Shown here in pieces: positions 10,808 through 28,068 of a stretch of DNA of 52,904 bases. Below the pieces are notes generated by a model. It worked only from the letters and a program-made list of their open reading frames with translations. It was not told where the DNA came from and did no database searches. Numbering within the stretch: the stretch's first letter is position 1; each line of letters opens with the position of its first letter. The DNA comes from Lentisphaeria bacterium (lineage in GTDB: Bacteria > Verrucomicrobiota > Lentisphaeria > Victivallales > UBA1829). A program made the translations under genes and the position numbers. Location of the stretch: NCBI GenBank assembly GCA_017615635.1, contig JAFZZR010000174.1, positions 1 through 52,904 on the forward strand. Direction: 5' to 3'.

Positions 10808-13237
10808 ATGATCATCAAATGTCCGCAATGCGGTCGTGAAACCGAACTGGAACACGTGGAACGGGGACGGCATGTCGAATGCATGTGCGGCTCCCGGTTC
10901 TTCCTGGACGAACTGACCGTCGTTCAGGACTATTCGGCCATCGATCAGGCGCCTCCGGAAAAAATCGGTCCCTACAAAATCGAACGTTTTATCGGACGCG
11001 GGGGTATGGGCCGTGTCTATAAGGGGATCCATCCGTCGCTGGGTCTGCCGGTGGCGGTGAAGATCCTTCTGCCCGAGTTTGCGAACAATGCCGTATTCAA
11101 AGCCCGCTTCATCCAGTCGGCAAAAATCTGCGCCAAACTGAATCATCCCAATATCGTCCGGGTATATGACTTCGGAACCACGGACGACGGCACGCTTTAT
11201 CTCGTCATGGAATACATCGCGGGCGGCACGCTCCACGATCTTCTCATGCGGTCCGGACCGCTGGATCCGGAAAAGACCGCCCGGATCGCCGAAGCGGTCT
11301 GCGACGGGCTGGAGGTGGCCTGGAGTCACGGGATCGTGCACCGGGACATCAAACCGGACAATCTGATGATCACGTCGGAAGGCGAGTACAAGCTGTCCGA
11401 TCTGGGTCTTGCCAAGTACGAACCGGGCGCCGGAGAAAAGACGACCTGGCGCAGCGATACGCTGGAACTTTCGTCCCTGGGGACGCCGGATTACATGGCG
11501 CCGGAACAGGCCCTGAACGCCGCGAACTGCGACATCCGCGCGGATATCTATTCCCTGGGGATCACACTGTACCAGCTTCTTTCCGGACGGCTCCCCTTTA
11601 TCGCGTCCAGCCGGGAGGAGGTCCGCCGGATGCATCTGGAAGTGGAGGCCAAGCTGCCCGGGTACTATCGGCCCGGGATCCCCATGGATCTGGAATACAT
11701 CGTCATGCGCTGCATCCAGAAACGCCGGACCGACCGGTATCAGACGCCGGCCGATCTCCACGCCGATCTGCGCGCCTATCTGGAAGGCGCTCCCCTGCCC
11801 TCCACCACCTCCGGGCCGGATCCGGATCCCGCGGTTCCCCGGATGCCGGTATCCCAGGCTCGTCCCGGGAAGGAATCGAAGGGCGGATGGCGTCCGATGC
11901 TCATTCTTCTGGCGCTTCTGGTATGCGGAGCGGCGGTGATTTTCGCCAAAATCGCCGCATACCGGACGGCGGAGTCCGACAACGGCGGCGGCCCGTCTGC
12001 GGAATCCGGCGCCGGAGAGGAAAGCAAACGGGAGGATTCCGCCTCACGCGGCCGGGTCCGGCTGAATCGGGATGAAGTATGGTCCGACACGCTGAAGTTC
12101 GCACAGGCAGCGCTGCGGGACCGTTCCGATTTTGCCATGGCCATTCTGAATCTGAAATCCTTCGAAAACGATGCGGACCCCAAGAGGCGCGCGGAAGCCC
12201 GCGAGCTTCTGAAACGTCTGGATACGGCCTGCCGGGAGGAGATCCGGGAAAGAAGGATCCGTCTGGACCGTCAGGCGCAGAAGCTTCTGGACCAGGAGAA
12301 GTACGAAGAGGTCCTCCGGCTCTACGATTCGGGCTTTGCCGACCTGCGGGAAGAAAGCCGGAGCGTCCGCGAGGAGATTGCGGAGAATCTGACGAGGAAG
12401 ATCGAGGAACGGAACGTCCGCCGGGCGAAGGCCGCCGAGTTTCTGGAAAAGAAAATCGTTCCTCTTCTGGCCGCCGGGGAATACGGAGCCGCGGAAGAGC
12501 TGTATCTTTCGAAAGACAATCCGGTCCGCCCGGGGAAAATTCTGGATCTGATCCGTCAGTGCGCCTCCGTGCCGCGCCTGTTCGCCGAACAGATGCGGAG
12601 CCGGACCGGGCAGGACTGCTTCTTCCGGTTCCGGAGCGAGCCGTTCGCCTCCTGGGGACCCGGCGGGATGAAGATACTCGAAGTCGAGCCGCCGGAGATT
12701 TACGTTCAGGCGGAGGGCCGGCGCATGTTCACGATCCGGGATCTCACCTGGGACGAACAGGCTTCCGAGATCGAAAAACTTCCGGGAACGACAGGGGAAG
12801 GCCGGACGCTCTGGCTGATCGGCGCCTGTTTCCGCGAGGTACCCGAAGAGGCCATGGCTCTGGCGAAACAGCTGCCTGCGGAACTGCGGGAGTCGTACAG
12901 CCGGTATCTGGAGGATTGGAACCGCAAGCGGACACAGGAGCTTTTCCGGAGCGAACTCCGGAATTTTCTCAACGAAGTCGGCTATACCAGCAAAGACGTC
13001 CCGGAGCCGGATCAGCTCCAGCGTATCCGCCTCTTCAGCGCGCTGGACTGGTCCGACGAGGAAACCTGTTCCGGCCTGTACGACCGGCTGGATCTCCTGA
13101 TCCGGAAGTACATCGGTCTGCCCGATCTGGAACCGTACATCTCCGCACTCCGGCATATCCGTGCCGATGTGGAAGAACATATCATCGATCAACCTAAAAT
13201 ACCGGCCCGCGGGTCCATTCAGCGAACGGGAGAATAG
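10808..13237 (+). CDS. Membrane Ser/Thr protein kinase with N-terminal zinc ribbon
   Basis: An 809-residue Hanks-type kinase. C5-x2-C8 and C25-x-C27 form a small zinc-ribbon-like head, rare in such kinases. The kinase domain (about 55-325) is complete: G-loop GRGGMG (63-68), Lys85 in VAVK, HRDIKPDN (178-185), DLG (198-200, in place of DFG) and APE (231-233). A proline-rich linker and one transmembrane helix (about 363-384) follow, then about 420 residues rich in charged alpha-helix that should lie outside the cytoplasm. It should therefore phosphorylate cytoplasmic Ser/Thr substrates, possibly in response to an envelope signal. The propeller and lipoprotein genes upstream could supply the signal; the pfkB and sppA genes follow within a few bases. 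Confidence 0.92.
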   Translation: MIIKCPQCGRETELEHVERGRHVECMCGSRFFLDELTVVQDYSAIDQAPPEKIGPYKIERFIGRGGMGRVYKGIHPSLGLPVAVKILLPEFANNAVFKARFIQSAKICAKLNHPNIVRVYDFGTTDDGTLYLVMEYIAGGTLHDLLMRSGPLDPEKTARIAEAVCDGLEVAWSHGIVHRDIKPDNLMITSEGEYKLSDLGLAKYEPGAGEKTTWRSDTLELSSLGTPDYMAPEQALNAANCDIRADIYSLGITLYQLLSGRLPFIASSREEVRRMHLEVEAKLPGYYRPGIPMDLEYIVMRCIQKRRTDRYQTPADLHADLRAYLEGAPLPSTTSGPDPDPAVPRMPVSQARPGKESKGGWRPMLILLALLVCGAAVIFAKIAAYRTAESDNGGGPSAESGAGEESKREDSASRGRVRLNRDEVWSDTLKFAQAALRDRSDFAMAILNLKSFENDADPKRRAEARELLKRLDTACREEIRERRIRLDRQAQKLLDQEKYEEVLRLYDSGFADLREESRSVREEIAENLTRKIEERNVRRAKAAEFLEKKIVPLLAAGEYGAAEELYLSKDNPVRPGKILDLIRQCASVPRLFAEQMRSRTGQDCFFRFRSEPFASWGPGGMKILEVEPPEIYVQAEGRRMFTIRDLTWDEQASEIEKLPGTTGEGRTLWLIGACFREVPEEAMALAKQLPAELRESYSRYLEDWNRKRTQELFRSELRNFLNEVGYTSKDVPEPDQLQRIRLFSALDWSDEETCSGLYDRLDLLIRKYIGLPDLEPYISALRHIRADVEEHIIDQPKIPARGSIQRTGE

Positions 13238-20761: not shown

Positions 20762-20804
20762 AGACTGCTGCAAAACAGTATTTTGCAGCAGTCTTCTTTT
20801 TTTT
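20762..20804 (+). terminator. Rho-independent terminator of the isomerase-aldolase-dehydrogenase operon
   Basis: A perfect 14-base inverted repeat (AGACTGCTGCAAAA at 20762-20775 and TTTTGCAGCAGTCT at 20781-20794) with a 5-base loop, followed by a run of T (eight at 20797-20804). It separates this operon from the AAA+ cassette downstream. Confidence 0.9.
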
Positions 20805-20880
20805 ATAAACGGCATTGATTTTTTTAATTTTGTTTGCAGAAACCGATTTGGGCAGACATAAAATGTCATACATGGGGGGC

Positions 20881-20966: not shown

Positions 20967-23165
20967 ATGAAGCATTACACCGAAAAAAAAACGTACTGGC
21001 GGGAATCCAAGGCTCTGGAATTCTTCCTCAACTTTATCCGGAATCACGACGGTTCCGTCAATGACAACGACACGTTCGAACTGGTCGCCGGACTGCGCTC
21101 GCATAAACAATGGGTCGATCTCATCAACAAATCGTTTCCGGCCGCGTCAATCAAAAAGATGGCCAATACGCCGGGGCGCGACCGGCTGGATTTCACGGAC
21201 GATCCCAAGGAAATCATCCGCGAGATCTGGTGCTGTAAAACAGCCCGGAAGAAACTCCGGACGGTGCTTTCACGCGTGGCTGAAGAGGAGCTCCGGAAGA
21301 ATCCGCCGGAACGGTATAAAGAGGAGACCTTCGCCCGGAAAACGGCCGAGCTCCAGGCGACACTGAAGCTGTCCGACCGCGAAATCAATATTCTGCTGGT
21401 TTTTGCCTTTGTGCGAAACGATCTGCTCTGCATCGCCGACGGGCACAACCGGAGATCGGATGAAAATGACAAGGCTCTGTTCGCGGCCAAGTCTCTCGAC
21501 TGCGAACTCTCCGAAGTCATGGCCTGTCTGGACGAGAAAGGCAAACTGCGCCGCTATCAGTGTGTCGATGAGGATCTGGACTTCAACGGCGCGCTGTTCA
21601 ATTTCCTGAACGGCTTTACCGAAGAACCGCTGACAAGCATGTTCTTCGCAAAAAGCAAGGAAGAAACCCTGCCCTGGGATTTCTACGGCGCCCTGACGGA
21701 GAAACACGGAGAACTGGTGGAACGGATCATTTCGAGCTGCGATGGCACAAACTCCGCCAACATTCTCCTCTACGGAGCACCGGGAACAGGCAAATCGAGT
21801 TTTGCAAAAACTCTGGCGGAACGGCTGCACCGGACCTGCTACGTGATCAGACAAAGCGCAATCGGCAGAATGGACCGCTCACGTAGCGATCCGGATTTTC
21901 GGTTCGCGGCTCTGCAGGTCTGCTCGGAACAGGTCGATCCCGCGCACAGCCTGATCGTGATCGATGAGGCGGACGATATGTTGCGGGGCGCCGGATCCGG
22001 GTCGTTCTTCTCCATGCTGTTCGGCGGGAATCTCCCGGTCGGAGACAAGGGGCGTCTCAACAGCGCGCTGGATTCCATCAGGGTCCCGACGATCTGGATC
22101 ACCAACACCCCGGCAGGTGCGCTGGACGAATCGAGCCGCCGCCGTTTCGATTACTCAATCCGGTTCGATCCGCTTACCGATGTTCAGCGGAAGATGATCT
22201 GGCACAATAACGTCGAAAAGATGAATCTGGGATCGTTCGTCAGCGATGCGATGCAGACGAAATTCGCCTCTCTCTATCCGGTGAGCGCCGGCGGAATTAC
22301 GATGGTTCTTCAGAACGTCGCAAAACTGAAACCGCAAACGGAGGAAGTGGAAAACCTGGTGGATAAGCTGATGAAGCCGCATTGCGAACTTCTCGGCCTT
22401 TCCGCACAGCGGAATAAAATGCTTCCGGCCAAGGACTATTCCCTGGAAGGCCTGAATATCAAAGGGAAAATCCCTTTGACGCAGATCCTGGAGGCCATCC
22501 GCAATTATCAATCCGGCAGTTTCGATGAAATCGACCGTCCTCGGATGAATCTGCTGCTTTCCGGCGCACCGGGAACCGGGAAGACGGAATTTGTCAAGTT
22601 TCTTGGCTCCGAACTGAATACGAAAGTCATTGTCAAAATGGGAAGCGATCTGCTGAATATGTATGTCGGCGAAACGGAACAGCAGATCAAACATGCATTC
22701 GAAACGGCGGGAAAGGAACACGCGATCCTTTTCCTCGATGAAATCGACGGCATGCTTCAGAGCCGCGACCGTGCCCGGCACAGCTGGGAAATCACGCAGG
22801 TCAACGAACTGCTTCATCAGATGGAAAATTTCAACGGCATCATGATCGGGGCGACCAACTTCTCCGTCAATCTGGATCCCGCAGTGCTGCGCCGCTTCAC
22901 GTTCAAGCTGGAATTCGACTATCTTGACGAGACCGGCAAAAAAATCTTCTTCGAAAGGATGTTTCAGACGAAACTCTCTCCGGATGAAGAACGTAAACTC
23001 GCAGGGATCCCGCGTCTCGCACCCGGTGATTTCCGCACTGTTCGGCAGAGCTTCTTCTATCTCGGAGGAAGTGTTTCCAATGATGACCGCATCGAGGCTC
23101 TCCGGCGGGAAAGCGAATGCAAACGGGATCCGGACGCAACCGAAGACAGGAAAATCGGATTCTGA
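20967..23165 (+). CDS. Tandem AAA+ ATPase, first gene of a five-gene cassette
   Basis: A 732-residue cytoplasmic protein. Residues 1-240 form an alpha-helical N-domain I do not recognise. AAA+ domain 1 has Walker A GAPGTGKS (270-277), Walker B LIVIDEAD (329-336), sensor-1 WITNTP (377-382) and ESSRRRF (388-394). AAA+ domain 2 has GAPGTGKT (533-540), AILFLDEID (586-594), 'MIGATNFS' (626-633) and the arginine-rich AVLRRF (639-644). Both ATP sites look intact, so this is a type II, Cdc48/p97-like remodelling ATPase layout rather than a degenerate one. It lies upstream of a SprT-like protease, an ankyrin/DUF932-like protein and a helicase, suggesting extraction or remodelling of proteins on DNA. 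Alternatively it belongs to a mobile or defence module. Its substrate is unknown. Confidence 0.9.
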   Translation: MKHYTEKKTYWRESKALEFFLNFIRNHDGSVNDNDTFELVAGLRSHKQWVDLINKSFPAASIKKMANTPGRDRLDFTDDPKEIIREIWCCKTARKKLRTVLSRVAEEELRKNPPERYKEETFARKTAELQATLKLSDREINILLVFAFVRNDLLCIADGHNRRSDENDKALFAAKSLDCELSEVMACLDEKGKLRRYQCVDEDLDFNGALFNFLNGFTEEPLTSMFFAKSKEETLPWDFYGALTEKHGELVERIISSCDGTNSANILLYGAPGTGKSSFAKTLAERLHRTCYVIRQSAIGRMDRSRSDPDFRFAALQVCSEQVDPAHSLIVIDEADDMLRGAGSGSFFSMLFGGNLPVGDKGRLNSALDSIRVPTIWITNTPAGALDESSRRRFDYSIRFDPLTDVQRKMIWHNNVEKMNLGSFVSDAMQTKFASLYPVSAGGITMVLQNVAKLKPQTEEVENLVDKLMKPHCELLGLSAQRNKMLPAKDYSLEGLNIKGKIPLTQILEAIRNYQSGSFDEIDRPRMNLLLSGAPGTGKTEFVKFLGSELNTKVIVKMGSDLLNMYVGETEQQIKHAFETAGKEHAILFLDEIDGMLQSRDRARHSWEITQVNELLHQMENFNGIMIGATNFSVNLDPAVLRRFTFKLEFDYLDETGKKIFFERMFQTKLSPDEERKLAGIPRLAPGDFRTVRQSFFYLGGSVSNDDRIEALRRESECKRDPDATEDRKIGF

Positions 23166-23223
23166 TGCGGCGGAAATACCGGACAAATGGTTTTACAAAG
23201 AGGATGTTAAGGAGAAGAAAGAT

Positions 23224-23700
23224 ATGTACGAAATCGAACCTGCGCTGGCCGTCCTGTATGACAGTTTCCGGATCATGAATCATGTCTGCTGGCAGGGCAG
23301 TCTGCCGCCGTGCCTGCTGCGGTTGAGCCACCGGCTGTCGCCGAGGACTCTCGCCTACGCCGGGACCGACTTCCGGATCGTCTTCAACGCCGGGCACTGT
23401 CAACGCATTGACGATTCGGATTTTCTGCAGATCATGGCGCATGAAATGATCCACATCTGGCAGTATACCCGAGGCAAACGCGGCGGACACGGCCGCGATT
23501 TCAGGAATGAGCAGCTGCGTCTGGGACTGGTGCTCGGACGGGAGATCCCTCCGGACTCGCCCATGGGCTATGTGTTCTTCATGCACCGACTGAAGGACCT
23601 TCATCCGGCGGAGGCGGCGCGGAAAATCGCTGTGCACCGGAATCATAGAACATATGAAGCTGATTATTTCAATCAGTTTACAAATAAACAAAACAATTGA
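23224..23700 (+). CDS. SprT-like zinc metalloprotease
   Basis: A 158-residue protein; ATG with AAGGAG upstream, 58 bases after the ATPase. The family pattern is clear: N-terminal 'FRIMNHVCWQGSLPPCLLRLS' (SprT entry), zinc motif HEMIH inside 'IMAHEMIHIWQYTRG' and a third ligand in 'GGHGRDFRNE' (H-G-x-x-F). SprT-like proteins are small zinc metalloproteases; the eukaryotic relative SPRTN digests proteins cross-linked to DNA. Bacterial SprT members are usually solitary. No C-terminal zinc ribbon is visible. Placed between a tandem AAA+ ATPase and an SF2 helicase, it may be the proteolytic part of a nucleoprotein-clearing complex. Confidence 0.88.
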   Translation: MYEIEPALAVLYDSFRIMNHVCWQGSLPPCLLRLSHRLSPRTLAYAGTDFRIVFNAGHCQRIDDSDFLQIMAHEMIHIWQYTRGKRGGHGRDFRNEQLRLGLVLGREIPPDSPMGYVFFMHRLKDLHPAEAARKIAVHRNHRTYEADYFNQFTNKQNN

Positions 23701-23714
23701 CAAAGGAGAAAAAA

Positions 23715-25205
23715 ATGCCTCTTACAAAAGCCGTCAAAGAAAACCGTTATGAAGTCGCTGAATTCCTGATCGAAAGCGGAATGCGCCCGGATCCGGAGAA
23801 GGATGCGGAACTTCTTTACTCCGCTCTGGAAAACAAATCCATGCCCATGATCCAGCTGCTTCTGCCGTTTTTCGATCTCAACCGGACCGGACCGGACGGA
23901 AGAACGGTTCTGTTTTATCCGCAGCTCACAAAAGAAGAGGCGGAGTGTCTGATCCAGAACGGAGCGAAAGCCGACTTTGCCGATCCGAACGGAACGCTGC
24001 CGTATCAGACGGCAACCGATCCGGAAACGTCCGAATACCTGAAGGAGCTGTACTTCGAACTTCATCCGGTGACGGAATATTCGCTCGCGGCCGCCGGAAA
24101 AAAGCAGCAGCTCGACTGGTCCGAACGGTTTGCAACGACCCGAGTTACCATTTCCGACCTCGTGCCGGTGGAATGCGATCCTGCAACGGGCCGGTTCAAG
24201 ATCCAGTTCGAGGACCGCACATACGAAACCTCGGCACGTTTCATCACGAGCTTTGCACGGAAACTGAAATTTTCCAGCAATATCTTCAACTATTTCACCG
24301 CGGAAGAGGTCTTCGACCGCGTGCAGCAGCGGAATCCGGATGTGGCATTCAAAGTCACCTTCGACCGGCAGGACGGTGAGATTCTCGGCGTAGTGGATGA
24401 AAATAAAAAGCTTCTGCCTGCGGATATCGCCTGCAACGTCTTCGCGTCCGATCCGCGCGTTCAGAAGATCCAGTACTCCAAGGGCGTGTGGGAAGCGGAA
24501 TTTCAGCTGGACGAGACGTTCTCCGTCTCCGGCGACAGCGAATACTCCCGGAAAATCTGGGTGCATTATCCCGTGGACGGCGTCAGCATGCCGTGCGTGT
24601 ATCTCTCCGTCCTCCGGCAGGTGTGCTCCAATGGCATGGTCGCACTGGTTCCCGGATTCCGCACCGATATCGAAATCAACGACGAATCCGGAACTCATCT
24701 CTCCCGTCTGCTGCGGTCCTACAACAACGAAAACGGCTTCATGGCGCTGGAGAGCCGTCTCCAGACGGCACAAAACACAATGGCCTCCGTCAACGAACTG
24801 CTGAAATTCGAAAATCTGCTCACCACGCAGATCTCGGATCAGGCTTCGGCCTCTCAGCTTCAAACCCGCCTGGAAGAGATGGCCGGAGACCCGTGCGCCC
24901 GTTACGAGACGACTTCCCTGAACAATATCGCGCCAAAAAAACGTTCCCTGCTGCCGGTCAGCTGTTCGGTCAACGATCTCTTCAACTTCTGCTCCGAACT
25001 GACCACCCATCATGAAAACCTCATCTCCCGGGTGGATGCCTTCAATGCCGCGCTGGGCGGCATGCTCGCGCAGGAATTCGATCTGGAGGAGATGTACCAC
25101 AACCGGCAACCGGCCAGGGCGTTCCATCTGGATGATATGGATCTCACGGAAAATATCATGCGGGGAAGCGCCGTGCGGCGTCACAATACGGTGTTTCAGG
25201 CATGA
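23715..25205 (+). CDS. Ankyrin-repeat protein with a DUF932-like domain
   Basis: A 496-residue protein starting with ATG after AAAGGAG, 15 bases after the protease stop. Residues 1-100 look like three ankyrin repeats ('VKENRYEVAEFLIESGMRPD', 'MPMIQLLLPFFDLNRTGPDGRTVLFY', 'CLIQNGAKADFADPNGTLPY'). The middle to C-terminal part (about 140-420) resembles the phage/plasmid-type DUF932 family, with the phrase 'LRQVCSNGMVAL' and a long helical stretch after it. DUF932 proteins have unknown function and are frequent on phages and plasmids. Joining it to ankyrin repeats suggests a scaffold that recruits partner proteins of the cassette. Domain assignment is by pattern and not certain. Its end overlaps the helicase start (ATGA). 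Confidence 0.75.
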   Translation: MPLTKAVKENRYEVAEFLIESGMRPDPEKDAELLYSALENKSMPMIQLLLPFFDLNRTGPDGRTVLFYPQLTKEEAECLIQNGAKADFADPNGTLPYQTATDPETSEYLKELYFELHPVTEYSLAAAGKKQQLDWSERFATTRVTISDLVPVECDPATGRFKIQFEDRTYETSARFITSFARKLKFSSNIFNYFTAEEVFDRVQQRNPDVAFKVTFDRQDGEILGVVDENKKLLPADIACNVFASDPRVQKIQYSKGVWEAEFQLDETFSVSGDSEYSRKIWVHYPVDGVSMPCVYLSVLRQVCSNGMVALVPGFRTDIEINDESGTHLSRLLRSYNNENGFMALESRLQTAQNTMASVNELLKFENLLTTQISDQASASQLQTRLEEMAGDPCARYETTSLNNIAPKKRSLLPVSCSVNDLFNFCSELTTHHENLISRVDAFNAALGGMLAQEFDLEEMYHNRQPARAFHLDDMDLTENIMRGSAVRRHNTVFQA

Positions 25206-26338
25206 ACGGATTTATCTTCGAAGAACGTCCCTATCAGACTGAGGCCGTCGAACGCGTATTGGACGAATTCGGCAGCGGCCGGGAGTCGGTTCTGCTGGAG
25301 TCTCCGGTGGGCTCGGGCAAGACCGTCATGGGCCTTCTCATCATCAAAAAGCTTCAGGAGCAGGCAGACGGCAGACTGCGTGTCAACTGGGTGGCCTCGC
25401 GGCGACACATCCTCGAACAGACGCAGGACCTGAACGAAAGTTTCTTCCACTGTGATGTGAACATGGTCTCAGTCTTCTCCTCCAATCCGCCGAAAGCGGA
25501 TCTGGTGGTCCTCGACGAAGCCCACCACGAGGCAACGCAGAGCTGTCTGAGCATGTATGAAAACACCGGGAACACCCGGACACTCGGACTTTCCGCCACG
25601 CCCATGCGGACCGACCGGATGCGTCTTTCGTTCCAGACAAGCGTACGCTGCTGCGGGATCCAGCGGCTGATCAACATGGGGGTCCTCGCGCAGTATCATT
25701 CCTGCAAACTGCCGGAATGGAACGTGGAGCTGGCGGCAAAGGTCTTCTGCGAATCGCCGGAGAGATGGGGCAAGACTCTGGTGTTTTTCCAGACGATCCA
25801 TGAGTGCATGATATTCAAGCACATCCTCGCCGAAAACGGACTCGGCTGCGAAGTCGTCACTGCCCAAAGCAACCGGGATTCCCAGCTCGACGCCTTCATC
25901 GCGGGCGACGTGCAGGTCGTGGCCAACGTCTCCGTCCTCAGCGAAGGATTCGACCTGCCGGAACTCCGAAGCGTGTTCGTGCGCGACGCCTCGCGGCTCC
26001 CGACCATTCAGATGGCGGGACGCGGACTGCGCCGGGCTCCGGGCAAGGATCACTGCAATCTGGTGCAGAGTTCGAATTCCCCGTACCCCGTAGAGAAGAT
26101 CGCGCTTCCCGCCGAAGGATTCCGCTACATGAAAAACAAATGGCTCAGCTGTTCCGGCAATACGCAAATCATCCTGGATACGCTGGAGAACAGCATGAAA
26201 CTCCTGGAAGGAAGAAAGATCCATCTGCCTCGCTATCTTACTTGCGGACGGCATGTCAAGGAAGTTTCACTCCGGGCCCTGACTCCCTTTTCCCGAAACT
26301 CGCTCTCCAAACTCTTCAACATCACTGGTGAAAAATGA
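25202..26338 (+). CDS. SF2 DEAH-box helicase
   Basis: A 378-residue helicase in the compact two-domain form of superfamily 2. 'ERPYQTEAVERVL' (Q-like motif), Walker A 'SPVGSGKT' (34-41), DEAH (105-108), SAT (131-133), then the second RecA domain with 'KTLVFFQTIHECMIF', 'VANVSVLSEGFDLPELRSVF' and the arginine finger motif 'IQMAGRGLRRAPGKDH'. It is related to RecQ/UvrB/Rad25-like helicases of the short DEXH type found on phages and plasmids. The start overlaps the stop of the ankyrin gene (ATGA) and the stop overlaps the next gene's ATG, so all three are translationally coupled. Strand preference and nucleic-acid target are unknown. Confidence 0.88.
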   Translation: MNGFIFEERPYQTEAVERVLDEFGSGRESVLLESPVGSGKTVMGLLIIKKLQEQADGRLRVNWVASRRHILEQTQDLNESFFHCDVNMVSVFSSNPPKADLVVLDEAHHEATQSCLSMYENTGNTRTLGLSATPMRTDRMRLSFQTSVRCCGIQRLINMGVLAQYHSCKLPEWNVELAAKVFCESPERWGKTLVFFQTIHECMIFKHILAENGLGCEVVTAQSNRDSQLDAFIAGDVQVVANVSVLSEGFDLPELRSVFVRDASRLPTIQMAGRGLRRAPGKDHCNLVQSSNSPYPVEKIALPAEGFRYMKNKWLSCSGNTQIILDTLENSMKLLEGRKIHLPRYLTCGRHVKEVSLRALTPFSRNSLSKLFNITGEK

Positions 26339-27009
26339 AAGATGATGAAATCACAGCCCGTGCAATGGAACTGGCCGTTCTCTTCGCGGACATCCCCGAC
26401 GATGTCCTCATGCGCTTTGTCAACCGCAGCACGATCGTATGCACCGAATTCGACCGCAGCTCCATTCTGCGCGCCCTGGCGAGAAAATCGAATTCGGGCC
26501 GCGAACAGCTGAAAGCGTTTCTTTTCAAACCCGTTCCGGATTCTCTGCTGAAAAAACCGAGCTGGAGCTGGGGCACCTCCCTGAAAAGCCGTTATGAGAA
26601 AAACGTCACCTGCGAGGGGCTCTGCCGATTCGATACGCCGCTTCCGAAAAACAATCCGGAACACGACGATGAATTTGTGGAAAATGCCAAGGAACTTCTC
26701 CGCCGCGACCGGGAACTGCTGAAAAAGCTTCAGCAGAAGGATGAATCGATCATCCGCCGGGAGATCCTGGAGGAAGCGGAATTCAACACCGCCTTCGGCG
26801 ACTCCGAAGCCGCCCGCGCCGAAGCCGCCTTCCGCGACGGTGTCGTCCGAGCAAAACTGGCTGAACTGGAACGATATGTTAAGGAACAGATGGCGGAACT
26901 CCGAAGGGAAAACCGCGCCTATATGGAATCGCTCCGACAGGAATTTCTTCAGTCTTGTCCGGACCAGGGGCTTCCGGCGGAGTCATGCTCTGCGGGAAAC
27001 GGATCGTGA
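26335..27009 (+). CDS. Coiled-coil protein ending the cassette
   Basis: A 224-residue protein of unknown function whose ATG overlaps the helicase stop (ATGA). The first 60 residues ('ITARAMELAVLFADIPDDVLMRF') are helical, possibly a small DNA- or protein-binding fold. The second half ('AKELLRRDRELLKKLQQKDESIIRREILEEAEF' and 'LAELERYVKEQMAELRRENRAYMESLRQEFLQ', each as part of longer helices) is a strongly charged coiled coil, so it likely self-associates or links partners. No catalytic motif is visible. Because it is found only in this translational chain here, its role is tied to the AAA+/SprT/helicase group. Confidence 0.75.
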   Translation: MKDDEITARAMELAVLFADIPDDVLMRFVNRSTIVCTEFDRSSILRALARKSNSGREQLKAFLFKPVPDSLLKKPSWSWGTSLKSRYEKNVTCEGLCRFDTPLPKNNPEHDDEFVENAKELLRRDRELLKKLQQKDESIIRREILEEAEFNTAFGDSEAARAEAAFRDGVVRAKLAELERYVKEQMAELRRENRAYMESLRQEFLQSCPDQGLPAESCSAGNGS

Positions 27010-27057
27010 AAGACAGCCCGGCAGGGTGGAGCGTCCCGTTTTTTTTCGTATCGTGCC

Positions 27058-27141: not shown

Positions 27142-28068
27142 ATGGATTTACCGATTCATCAGTTTCTCACGGAGGATTTTTTCAGGCCGAACTGGTCGGT
27201 CTCCGTTCATCTGGTCCGGAACGGTCCCGAGGAGTATCCGTCTGAATATACGCACCTGAATCAGAGGCAGTTCTGGAAGATCATGTATATCGTAAAAGGA
27301 CACGCCGTCATGATCATCAACAACCGGAAATACGAACTGCCGGCCGGATCCACGGGACTCATTCATCCATCGGACCTGACAACCTTGGCGCTGACGGAGG
27401 ATGTTCTACTGTACAATGTTCTGTTCCAGATGGATGCCATCGAAAGCGAATTGAAAAATCTCTGTCTGAAAGAGGATTTTTTCTCCATTTTCCGGCAGAA
27501 TGCGGACAACCGGGATCCGATCCGTCACGATATTCTGCACCTGATGGACTCCAACCGTACGATCTACGCGATCATCCGGAAAATGTACCGGGAATACCAG
27601 TCCGATGAAGTATTCTCCCGCGAGCTTCTGAAAACGTATCTTCTGGAACTTCTGTATTTGCTGGCCCGGCAGTCCTTTTCCTCCTCGCTGAAAAGCCGCC
27701 GCGCCTTTGCTCCGGAATACATCAAGTCAACCTTGCAGAAGAACTTCCGGAATCCTCCGGACATCCGGAGTCTTATGCGGAAGACCGGTCTGACCCGCAA
27801 CGAACTGTTTCGTCTCTACAAGGCGGAAACCGGGGAAACCATGGGGCAGACCGTTTTGCATTTCCGGCTGGGATATGCGCTCGACCTTCTGAAGAATACG
27901 GATTTGCCCGTTTCGGAAATCTATGCCATGGCCGGATTTACGGATATTTCCAACTTCTACCGGGTCTTCCGTCGGACCGTCGGCCATTCTCCGGGATTCT
28001 TCCGCGAAAACCGAAACGGAGATCGGGAACACGCATCCGGCGTCCCGTCTTCGGATCACTCCGTCTGA
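27142..28068 (+). CDS. AraC-family transcriptional regulator
   Basis: A 308-residue regulator: cupin-type sensor ('LNQRQFWKIMYIVKGHAVMIINNRKYELPAGSTGLIHPSDL') and C-terminal HTH domain. The first HTH is 'DIRSLMRKTGLTRNELFRLYKAETGE', the second 'PVSEIYAMAGFTDISNFYRVFRRTVGHSPGFFREN'. It follows the AAA+ cassette by about 130 bases but has its own promoter candidate. Its 3' end overlaps the end of the convergent epimerase gene by 13 bases. It may control a distant sugar operon; there is no direct divergent partner, unlike the other AraC genes in the window. Confidence 0.9.
   Translation: MDLPIHQFLTEDFFRPNWSVSVHLVRNGPEEYPSEYTHLNQRQFWKIMYIVKGHAVMIINNRKYELPAGSTGLIHPSDLTTLALTEDVLLYNVLFQMDAIESELKNLCLKEDFFSIFRQNADNRDPIRHDILHLMDSNRTIYAIIRKMYREYQSDEVFSRELLKTYLLELLYLLARQSFSSSLKSRRAFAPEYIKSTLQKNFRNPPDIRSLMRKTGLTRNELFRLYKAETGETMGQTVLHFRLGYALDLLKNTDLPVSEIYAMAGFTDISNFYRVFRRTVGHSPGFFRENRNGDREHASGVPSSDHSV

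Follow-up and report, generated by a model that had tools for sequence, protein, structure and literature searches.

A possible nucleoprotein-clearing module in a gut Lentisphaeria bacterium: a Cdc48-like ATPase and a SprT-like protease beside a DUF932-helicase pair

Can a bacterium carry, in a single operon, the kind of machinery with which proteins are stripped from DNA in eukaryotes, where Cdc48/VCP and Spartan form the pair that acts in the clearance of DNA-protein crosslinks? The question is raised by a locus in contig JAFZZR010000174.1 of a Lentisphaeria gut bacterium (assembly GCA_017615635.1; 3.7 Mb in 204 contigs), whose analysed stretch of 52,904 nucleotides (nt) is referred to here as the window. 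Five genes, A to E, follow one another on the + strand (Table 1), and code for a tandem ATPase of the AAA+ class, a SprT-like zinc protease, a protein with ankyrin repeats and a DUF932-type core, a helicase of superfamily 2 (SF2), and a charged protein. The answer offered below is that the locus may represent a horizontally moving, inducible module for the clearing of nucleoprotein, a reading which we rate at slightly less than an even chance, and whose constant element is the two-gene core C-D.

The arrangement of the locus had been described beforehand from the letters alone, and this sequence-only reading was correct in its immediate observations: the five genes lie on one strand, with gaps of 58 nt between A and B and of 14 nt between B and C, and with ATGA overlaps at the C/D and D/E junctions, while a strong terminator precedes them and an AraC gene (start at 27142) lies downstream. 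The notion of a fixed five-gene cassette fared differently, as the five genes were found side by side only in this genome; a gene-order search, which it had proposed, recovered B-C-D-E, B-C-D-A and C-D-B elsewhere, but not the full set. Among the 19 bacterial C loci examined (L numbers designate loci), D lies directly after C in every one, and a C-D pair is also found in a metagenome-assembled genome (MAG) of Desulfobulbus (L037). Since A and E vary and C-D is constant, a five-gene system is rejected, and the constant part of the cassette is the C-D core. Within the order, C is matched in 14 of 137 genomes, in a few of them only partially or through the ankyrins alone, and the same-order relatives carry the names of Lentisphaeria and Victivallis MAGs; ankyrins are present in the window and in L017-L021, and absent from the C of L022-L025, L027, L037 and L166-L171, the C locus of L026 being cut by the contig end. 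Copies from distant families retain approximately 36-44% identity in C and 52% in D. Orthologues of E (68-71% identity) directly follow D in L017, L018 and L019, which places E in four loci together with the window.

Searches by profile and by structure uphold the earlier identification of a tandem ATPase with both ATP sites intact, of a zinc protease with a HEMIH motif and of a DEAH helicase; the ankyrin and DUF932-like parts of C are recognized by fold, with the sequence cut-off of the latter being missed, and a coiled-coil nature for E is plausible. D matches PF04851 (2e-19) and PF00271 (8e-10) and carries the SF2 motifs, including DEAHHE and QMAGRGLRR, which are conserved in a 22-sequence alignment; its closest solved structure is RadD (6jde, 6e-11), and it scores 57.3 bits against the RadD model NF053632, whose cut-off is 720. 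The AlphaFold model of C (predicted local distance difference test, pLDDT, of 81) matches ankyrins at its N-terminus in a fold search of the PDB, and within a library of viral structures its top match is a nameless phage protein (E-value 4e-12), DUF932 proteins being matched at E-values of 2e-10 to 4e-4. The family profile PF06067 gave no match for C, and the relative in L027 scores 14.3 bits where 23 are required. The RxVCSNG motif of C aligns with DUF932 in a profile comparison (E-value 6e-4, probability 29%), and with YfjQ (E-value 3e-3). With full-length C as the query, the PDB search gave ankyrins and no solved relative of the DUF932 core. For E, no family rose above chance in four libraries; the protein is charged, with 44% D/E/K/R over residues 111-208 and two Gly/Pro, and shows no clear heptad peak.

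B scores above the Pfam cut-off for the SprT-like family PF10263 (37.3 versus 25.6 bits, E-value 2.6e-9), and its HEMIH motif, together with a third His in GGHG, is conserved in all six aligned sequences. Its model (pLDDT 91) finds human Spartan (6mdx) as the best solved fold at a modest E-value of 4.6e-3, and the profile of the B family also places Spartan first (E-value 0.012); B is predicted to be a zinc-dependent protease acting on DNA-bound protein. Its link to the C-D pair is supported by adjacency in several arrangements, by one fusion and by its near-confinement to genomes that harbor C. B lies upstream of C in the window, L017, L019 and L020, and downstream of D in L166, while in L170 it forms a fusion with the latter half of D, which is there broken by a frameshift. 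This type of SprT was detected in six of the 137 genomes, five of which also have C, four with the two adjacent (Fisher p 7e-6); the profile employed was built from four of the six carrier genomes, which does not in itself force absence elsewhere. In L167-L169, D bears an extra C-terminal domain that weakly resembles SprT and is devoid of HExxH (E-value 2e-4, probability 47%), and which may tentatively be regarded as a relative of it.

A contains two AAA+ modules with intact Walker A and B motifs (PF00004, 3e-41; both ATP sites conserved in the alignment), as in the CDC48 family, and its closest solved structures are a VCP-like ATPase and Cdc48 (~1e-30); on the CDC48 family model TIGR01243 it reaches 86.6 bits, below the subfamily cut-off of 802.65. 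Its second AAA domain scores best, among defence models, against IetA, to which it is closer than to FtsH. Assignment to IetAS is not warranted, with 119.5 bits against an IetA cut-off of 510 and an adjoining protease that is SprT-like and not subtilisin-type. The protein ends in Ile-Gly-Phe, and in the A-family loci surveyed (L070-L101, L143-L158) [ILVM]G[FL] terminates 34 of 37 bacterial relatives and FGF two more, the residues that precede the tripeptide being variable; 13 of 19 viral relatives also carry it. A looser form of the motif ends 28 of 30 A proteins, versus 4 of 568 other open reading frames of the same loci. In Clp ATPases the tripeptide that docks on ClpP is (L/I/V)-G-(F/L) (PMC8745299), a form to which the tail of A conforms, and clpP adjoins A in four loci (L025, L081, L167, L168); we infer that A may dock on ClpP.

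The A family is present in 40 of the 137 genomes, much more widely than C-D, and its frequent neighbors include sigma-54 activators, WYL regulators, MoxR with a VWA-metallopeptidase, ClpP, PLD, RNase-T and a WEKLDG-repeat protein. MoxR ATPase and vWA protein genes adjoin A or C-D in L022, L023, L072, L089, L090 and L100, and none is present in the window. Many different operons include A as a general partner, and ClpP or the MoxR-VWA metallopeptidase is present in some of them. A also adjoins C-D, or lies within a few genes of it, in the window, L020 (after D), L023, L025, L167 and L168, and is found in 10 of 11 genomes with C versus 30 of 126 without (Fisher p 1.6e-5), an enrichment that large accessory genomes might inflate.

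That the locus is mobile is indicated by comparison with UvrB, which was used as a yardstick of transfer (RpoB was not found in G000). C and D are 82-88% identical to the copies of another family and 76-80% to the copy of their own family, while UvrB displays the opposite order, with 60-62% to the other family and 66% to its own; these identities argue that the cassette moves horizontally. The flanks are conserved in relatives up to ~18977 and from ~29027, and synteny breaks in between. Recent insertion into the chromosome, marked by an exact empty site, was also considered and set aside, no clean empty site having been found.

Inducibility is suggested by the promoters. Sites of sigma-54 type (TGGCA[CT]N5TTGC[AT]) number 30 in 0.80 Mb of loci, versus 1.65 expected from base-shuffled sequence, and many are located 50-80 nt upstream of A, others preceding B (L017, L019) or C (L021, L166, L170); because these candidate promoters so often stand directly upstream of A, B or C, the module may well be inducible. 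A palindrome, GACATN3ATGTC, has eight exact copies in 0.60 Mb of A-family loci versus 0.2 in shuffles, most of them in promoter regions of A operons (window, L078, L083, L097, L074, L075, L096). True RtcR adjoins C-D in three distant loci (L167, L168, L169), in two of them together with A; a link to defence and stress has been described for CARF/RtcR-like and WYL regulators (PMC4012209). Sensing of the RtcR type (CARF) by the common sigma-54 activator F6 was examined and discarded, as its N-terminus, unlike those in L167-L169, does not match RtcR. Sigma-54 activators with the N-terminus LILTGWxWxDYACAAAxAL..., not RtcR-like by profile, are present in L083, L085, L088, L091-L093 and L166, where they adjoin A genes and RNase-T or Sir2 genes.

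The C-D pair is also encoded by viral contigs. In 9 of the 11 that contain C, D lies just upstream of it (order D-C), two pairs of contigs being near-duplicates, and contigs with the pair reach 275 kb. In L139, L141 and L142 a common gene block comes after the pair, and in L141 it comprises an AAA protein, a UvsW-like helicase, a single-stranded DNA-binding protein and a UvsX-like recombinase. The presence of C-D among phage recombination genes supports an action on nucleic acid. SprT was absent, or below cut-off, in the viral records that hold C-D. Jumbo phages have been reported to carry genes for SprT, ClpP, a MoxR-vWA metallopeptidase and UvsW (PMC7824862), and parts of the cassette thus circulate in phages as well. 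An origin from plasmids or cultured phages was also tried and rejected, with no match to C among 50,697 phage and 72,556 plasmid records; two viral C proteins likewise found no match in the phage records.

How does this set of genes compare with systems already described? In the open-access literature searched none combines these components, as the sequence-only reading had supposed, and it is their parts and logic that resemble the p97-Spartan and Clp systems. With p97/Cdc48-SPRTN the locus shares a double-ring Cdc48-like ATPase and a HExxH-bearing SprT protease, placed here in one operon with a helicase; B is, however, only remotely similar (profile E-value 0.012) and at 158 residues lacks the C-terminal Spartan regions (PIP, UBZ), there is no counterpart of the ankyrin-DUF932 protein or of E, and A has a ClpP-type tail. 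The likeness to ClpXP/ClpAP, which concerns an AAA+ unfoldase with the docking tripeptide and clpP as a neighboring gene, is tempered by the Cdc48-type tandem architecture of A and by the location of the tripeptide at the extreme C-terminus, and not in an internal loop as in Clp ATPases. IetAS also unites an AAA ATPase with a protease gene, and its IetA is the best-scoring match of A domain 2, but A falls far under the cut-off, the proteases are zinc metalloprotease and subtilisin-type, respectively, and the helicase and DUF932 genes are additional. RadD and the T4 UvsW helicases share the SF2 core motifs with D, some viral D-C copies even standing beside UvsW, single-stranded DNA-binding protein and UvsX genes; D is nevertheless only 378 residues long and has a DUF932-like partner in the bacterial loci examined. 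In the E. coli CP4-57 pair YfjP-YfjQ, YfjQ belongs to DUF932 and is encoded next to a GTPase gene, without adjoining helicase, SprT or AAA genes and with a detectable similarity to C that is limited to the RxVCxNG region; a double GTPase with DUF697, which recalls this pair, directly follows C-D-E in L018 (4635-7046).

In the mechanism that we consider most plausible, C and its partner helicase D would bind and remodel DNA, such as recombination- or stalled-fork-like structures, and B, recruited to the same site, would cut proteins stuck on the DNA. The Cdc48-like double ring of A would pull on such proteins and unfold them, and may hand them on to ClpP of the cell by way of its Ile-Gly-Phe tail, while the ankyrin repeats of C and the helical E could serve as protein-binding adaptors. 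We infer each biochemical step and each physical contact of this scheme. The targets may be either the cell's own crosslinks or phage complexes, repair and defence not being separable on the present evidence. The sequence-only reading had also proposed a nucleoprotein-remodelling system, and it is supported in part, by the SprT/C-D link, the enrichment of A, the recombination context and the relationship to Cdc48 and Spartan, the fixed cassette being the part that is lost. A number of observations weigh against the nucleoprotein-clearing reading. The five genes have been seen together in this genome only; many genomes have A but no C, and in several C-D loci A is either lacking or located on a different contig; and most C-D loci have no SprT, which nearly all of the viral records searched lack as well. 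The window contains neither an RtcR-type activator nor a sigma-54 site upstream of A, as an RtcR-regulated operon would, and the distinctive regulators of its relatives are not found near this copy. The named NCBIfam models for SprT, RadD, IetA and Cdc48 score far below their cut-offs, DUF932 is without an assigned function in the open-access literature searched, and most relatives lie on short MAG contigs, so that absences are weak evidence.

If correct, the nucleoprotein-clearing reading would describe a one-operon bacterial form of the p97-Spartan logic for stripping proteins off DNA. DUF932, a family of phage and plasmid proteins, would thereby acquire a partner and a role open to testing, and the GF ending conserved at the C-terminus of a Cdc48-like ATPase would predict a further class of ClpP partners in bacteria and large phages. 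A bolder formulation holds that the A family is a new class of ClpP-docking unfoldases which, with a Spartan-like protease and the DUF932-helicase pair, forms the bacterial equivalent of p97-Spartan for removing proteins from DNA, a system that is regulated by sensors of stress or infection and shares its DNA-handling pair with large phages; in this complete form it must be judged unlikely.

Could the locus instead be dedicated to anti-phage defence? Its proteins would then be induced upon infection and would break up or obstruct the replication or recombination complexes of phages, or cause cell death through proteolysis, with C and D captured from large phages and recognizing phage DNA intermediates. 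The patchy distribution of C (14 of 137 genomes) and its horizontal transfer are in keeping with such a role, as are the RtcR-type or other sigma-54 activators and WYL regulators of A-family loci, the proximity of A domain 2 to IetA, the viral contigs of up to 275 kb with C-D, and relatives that adjoin defence-type genes (GmrSD restriction, PLD, CHAT). Mobility and sigma-54 control are compatible with stress repair as well, though, and the cassette has no obvious killing effector or infection sensor. No PADLOC system was matched as a whole, and the sequence-only reading's question of whether the cassette lies in a variable island or beside defence genes received a divided reply, a synteny break and horizontal spread being evident, but with no defence gene among the ten scanned neighbors of the window copy. 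A dedicated defence function appears somewhat unlikely.

It could also be argued that C-D, with or without B, is the sole functional unit, engaged in phage-related recombination or repair, with A an unrelated general ATPase inserted upstream and E a bystander. The breadth of the A family and its many other neighbors speak for this view, as do L017 and L019, which have B-C-D-E behind a sigma-54-type promoter of their own with no A directly upstream, and L021, L024 and L171, where neither A nor B is near C-D. It is rendered improbable by the enrichment of A in C genomes and by the six loci, of different gene order, in which A adjoins or is near C-D. RtcR is the activator of the E. coli RNA-repair operon, and its presence beside C-D in three distant loci, in two with A, evokes a response directed at RNA, in which the helicase and the DUF932 protein would act on damaged RNA; an RNase-T-type exonuclease stands next to several A copies, and a ligase-like protein precedes C-D in L023, L025 and L027. 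That protein, however, matches DNA-ligase families (PF01068, phrog_114), the viral context is one of DNA recombination, D is closest to RadD and restriction helicases and not to RNA helicases, and SPRTN, whose function as a SprT protease is established, has DNA-bound proteins as its substrates, all of which leaves an RNA-directed role very improbable.

Table 1. Features of the five-gene locus and its borders, in window coordinates
Feature	Position	Strand	Basis or remark
Rho-independent terminator, ends upstream dehydrogenase gene	20762..20794	+	14-bp stem, then T run
Palindrome GACATAAAATGTC, predicted operator of A operon	20855..20867	.	Exact GACATN3ATGTC, 112 nt before A
A: tandem AAA+ ATPase, Cdc48/VCP-like, 732 aa	20967..23165	+	Walker A ~21774-21797 and ~22563-22586
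Codons of A C-terminal Ile-Gly-Phe, predicted ClpP-docking tripeptide	23154..23162	+	Motif in relatives
B: SprT-like zinc metalloprotease, 158 aa	23224..23700	+	HEMIH at 23440-23454
C: ankyrin repeats (residues 1-117), then DUF932-type core (~134-480), 496 aa	23715..25205	+	Fold searches
D: short SF2 helicase with DEAH box, 378 aa	25202..26338	+	PF04851, PF00271
E: charged, probably helical protein without family, 224 aa	26335..27009	+	
Possible terminator 3' of E	27024..27036	+	Weak 5-bp stem, then T run

Terminator-like structures near E are not more numerous in the region than in shuffles. The same genome contains a second module on a different contig (L027:2159-8526, C62), composed of a WEKLDG-repeat protein, two unknown proteins, a DNA-ligase-like protein, an ankyrin-less DUF932-like protein and a helicase. 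Solenoid-like repeats of this kind (QPQFADKCDWEKLDGxxWxxLL), for which no Pfam family was found where searched, adjoin A or C-D at L025:662-1972, L027:2225-3625, L022:7307-8383 and L090:2-1839. Upstream of C-D in L167 (10988-15916, -) and L169 (6857-11818, -) lies a fused beta-beta' RNA polymerase of ~1650 residues, and sigma-70-like genes adjoin C-D in L167 and L168; these could possibly constitute a private transcription apparatus in a family that is distant but belongs to the same phylum. A general link between RNA polymerase and C was dismissed, the fused beta-beta' next to C in L167 and L169 being a local occurrence (3 of 388 genomes). Upstream of the cassette, the window also encodes a serine/threonine protein kinase-like protein of 809 residues (10808-13237).

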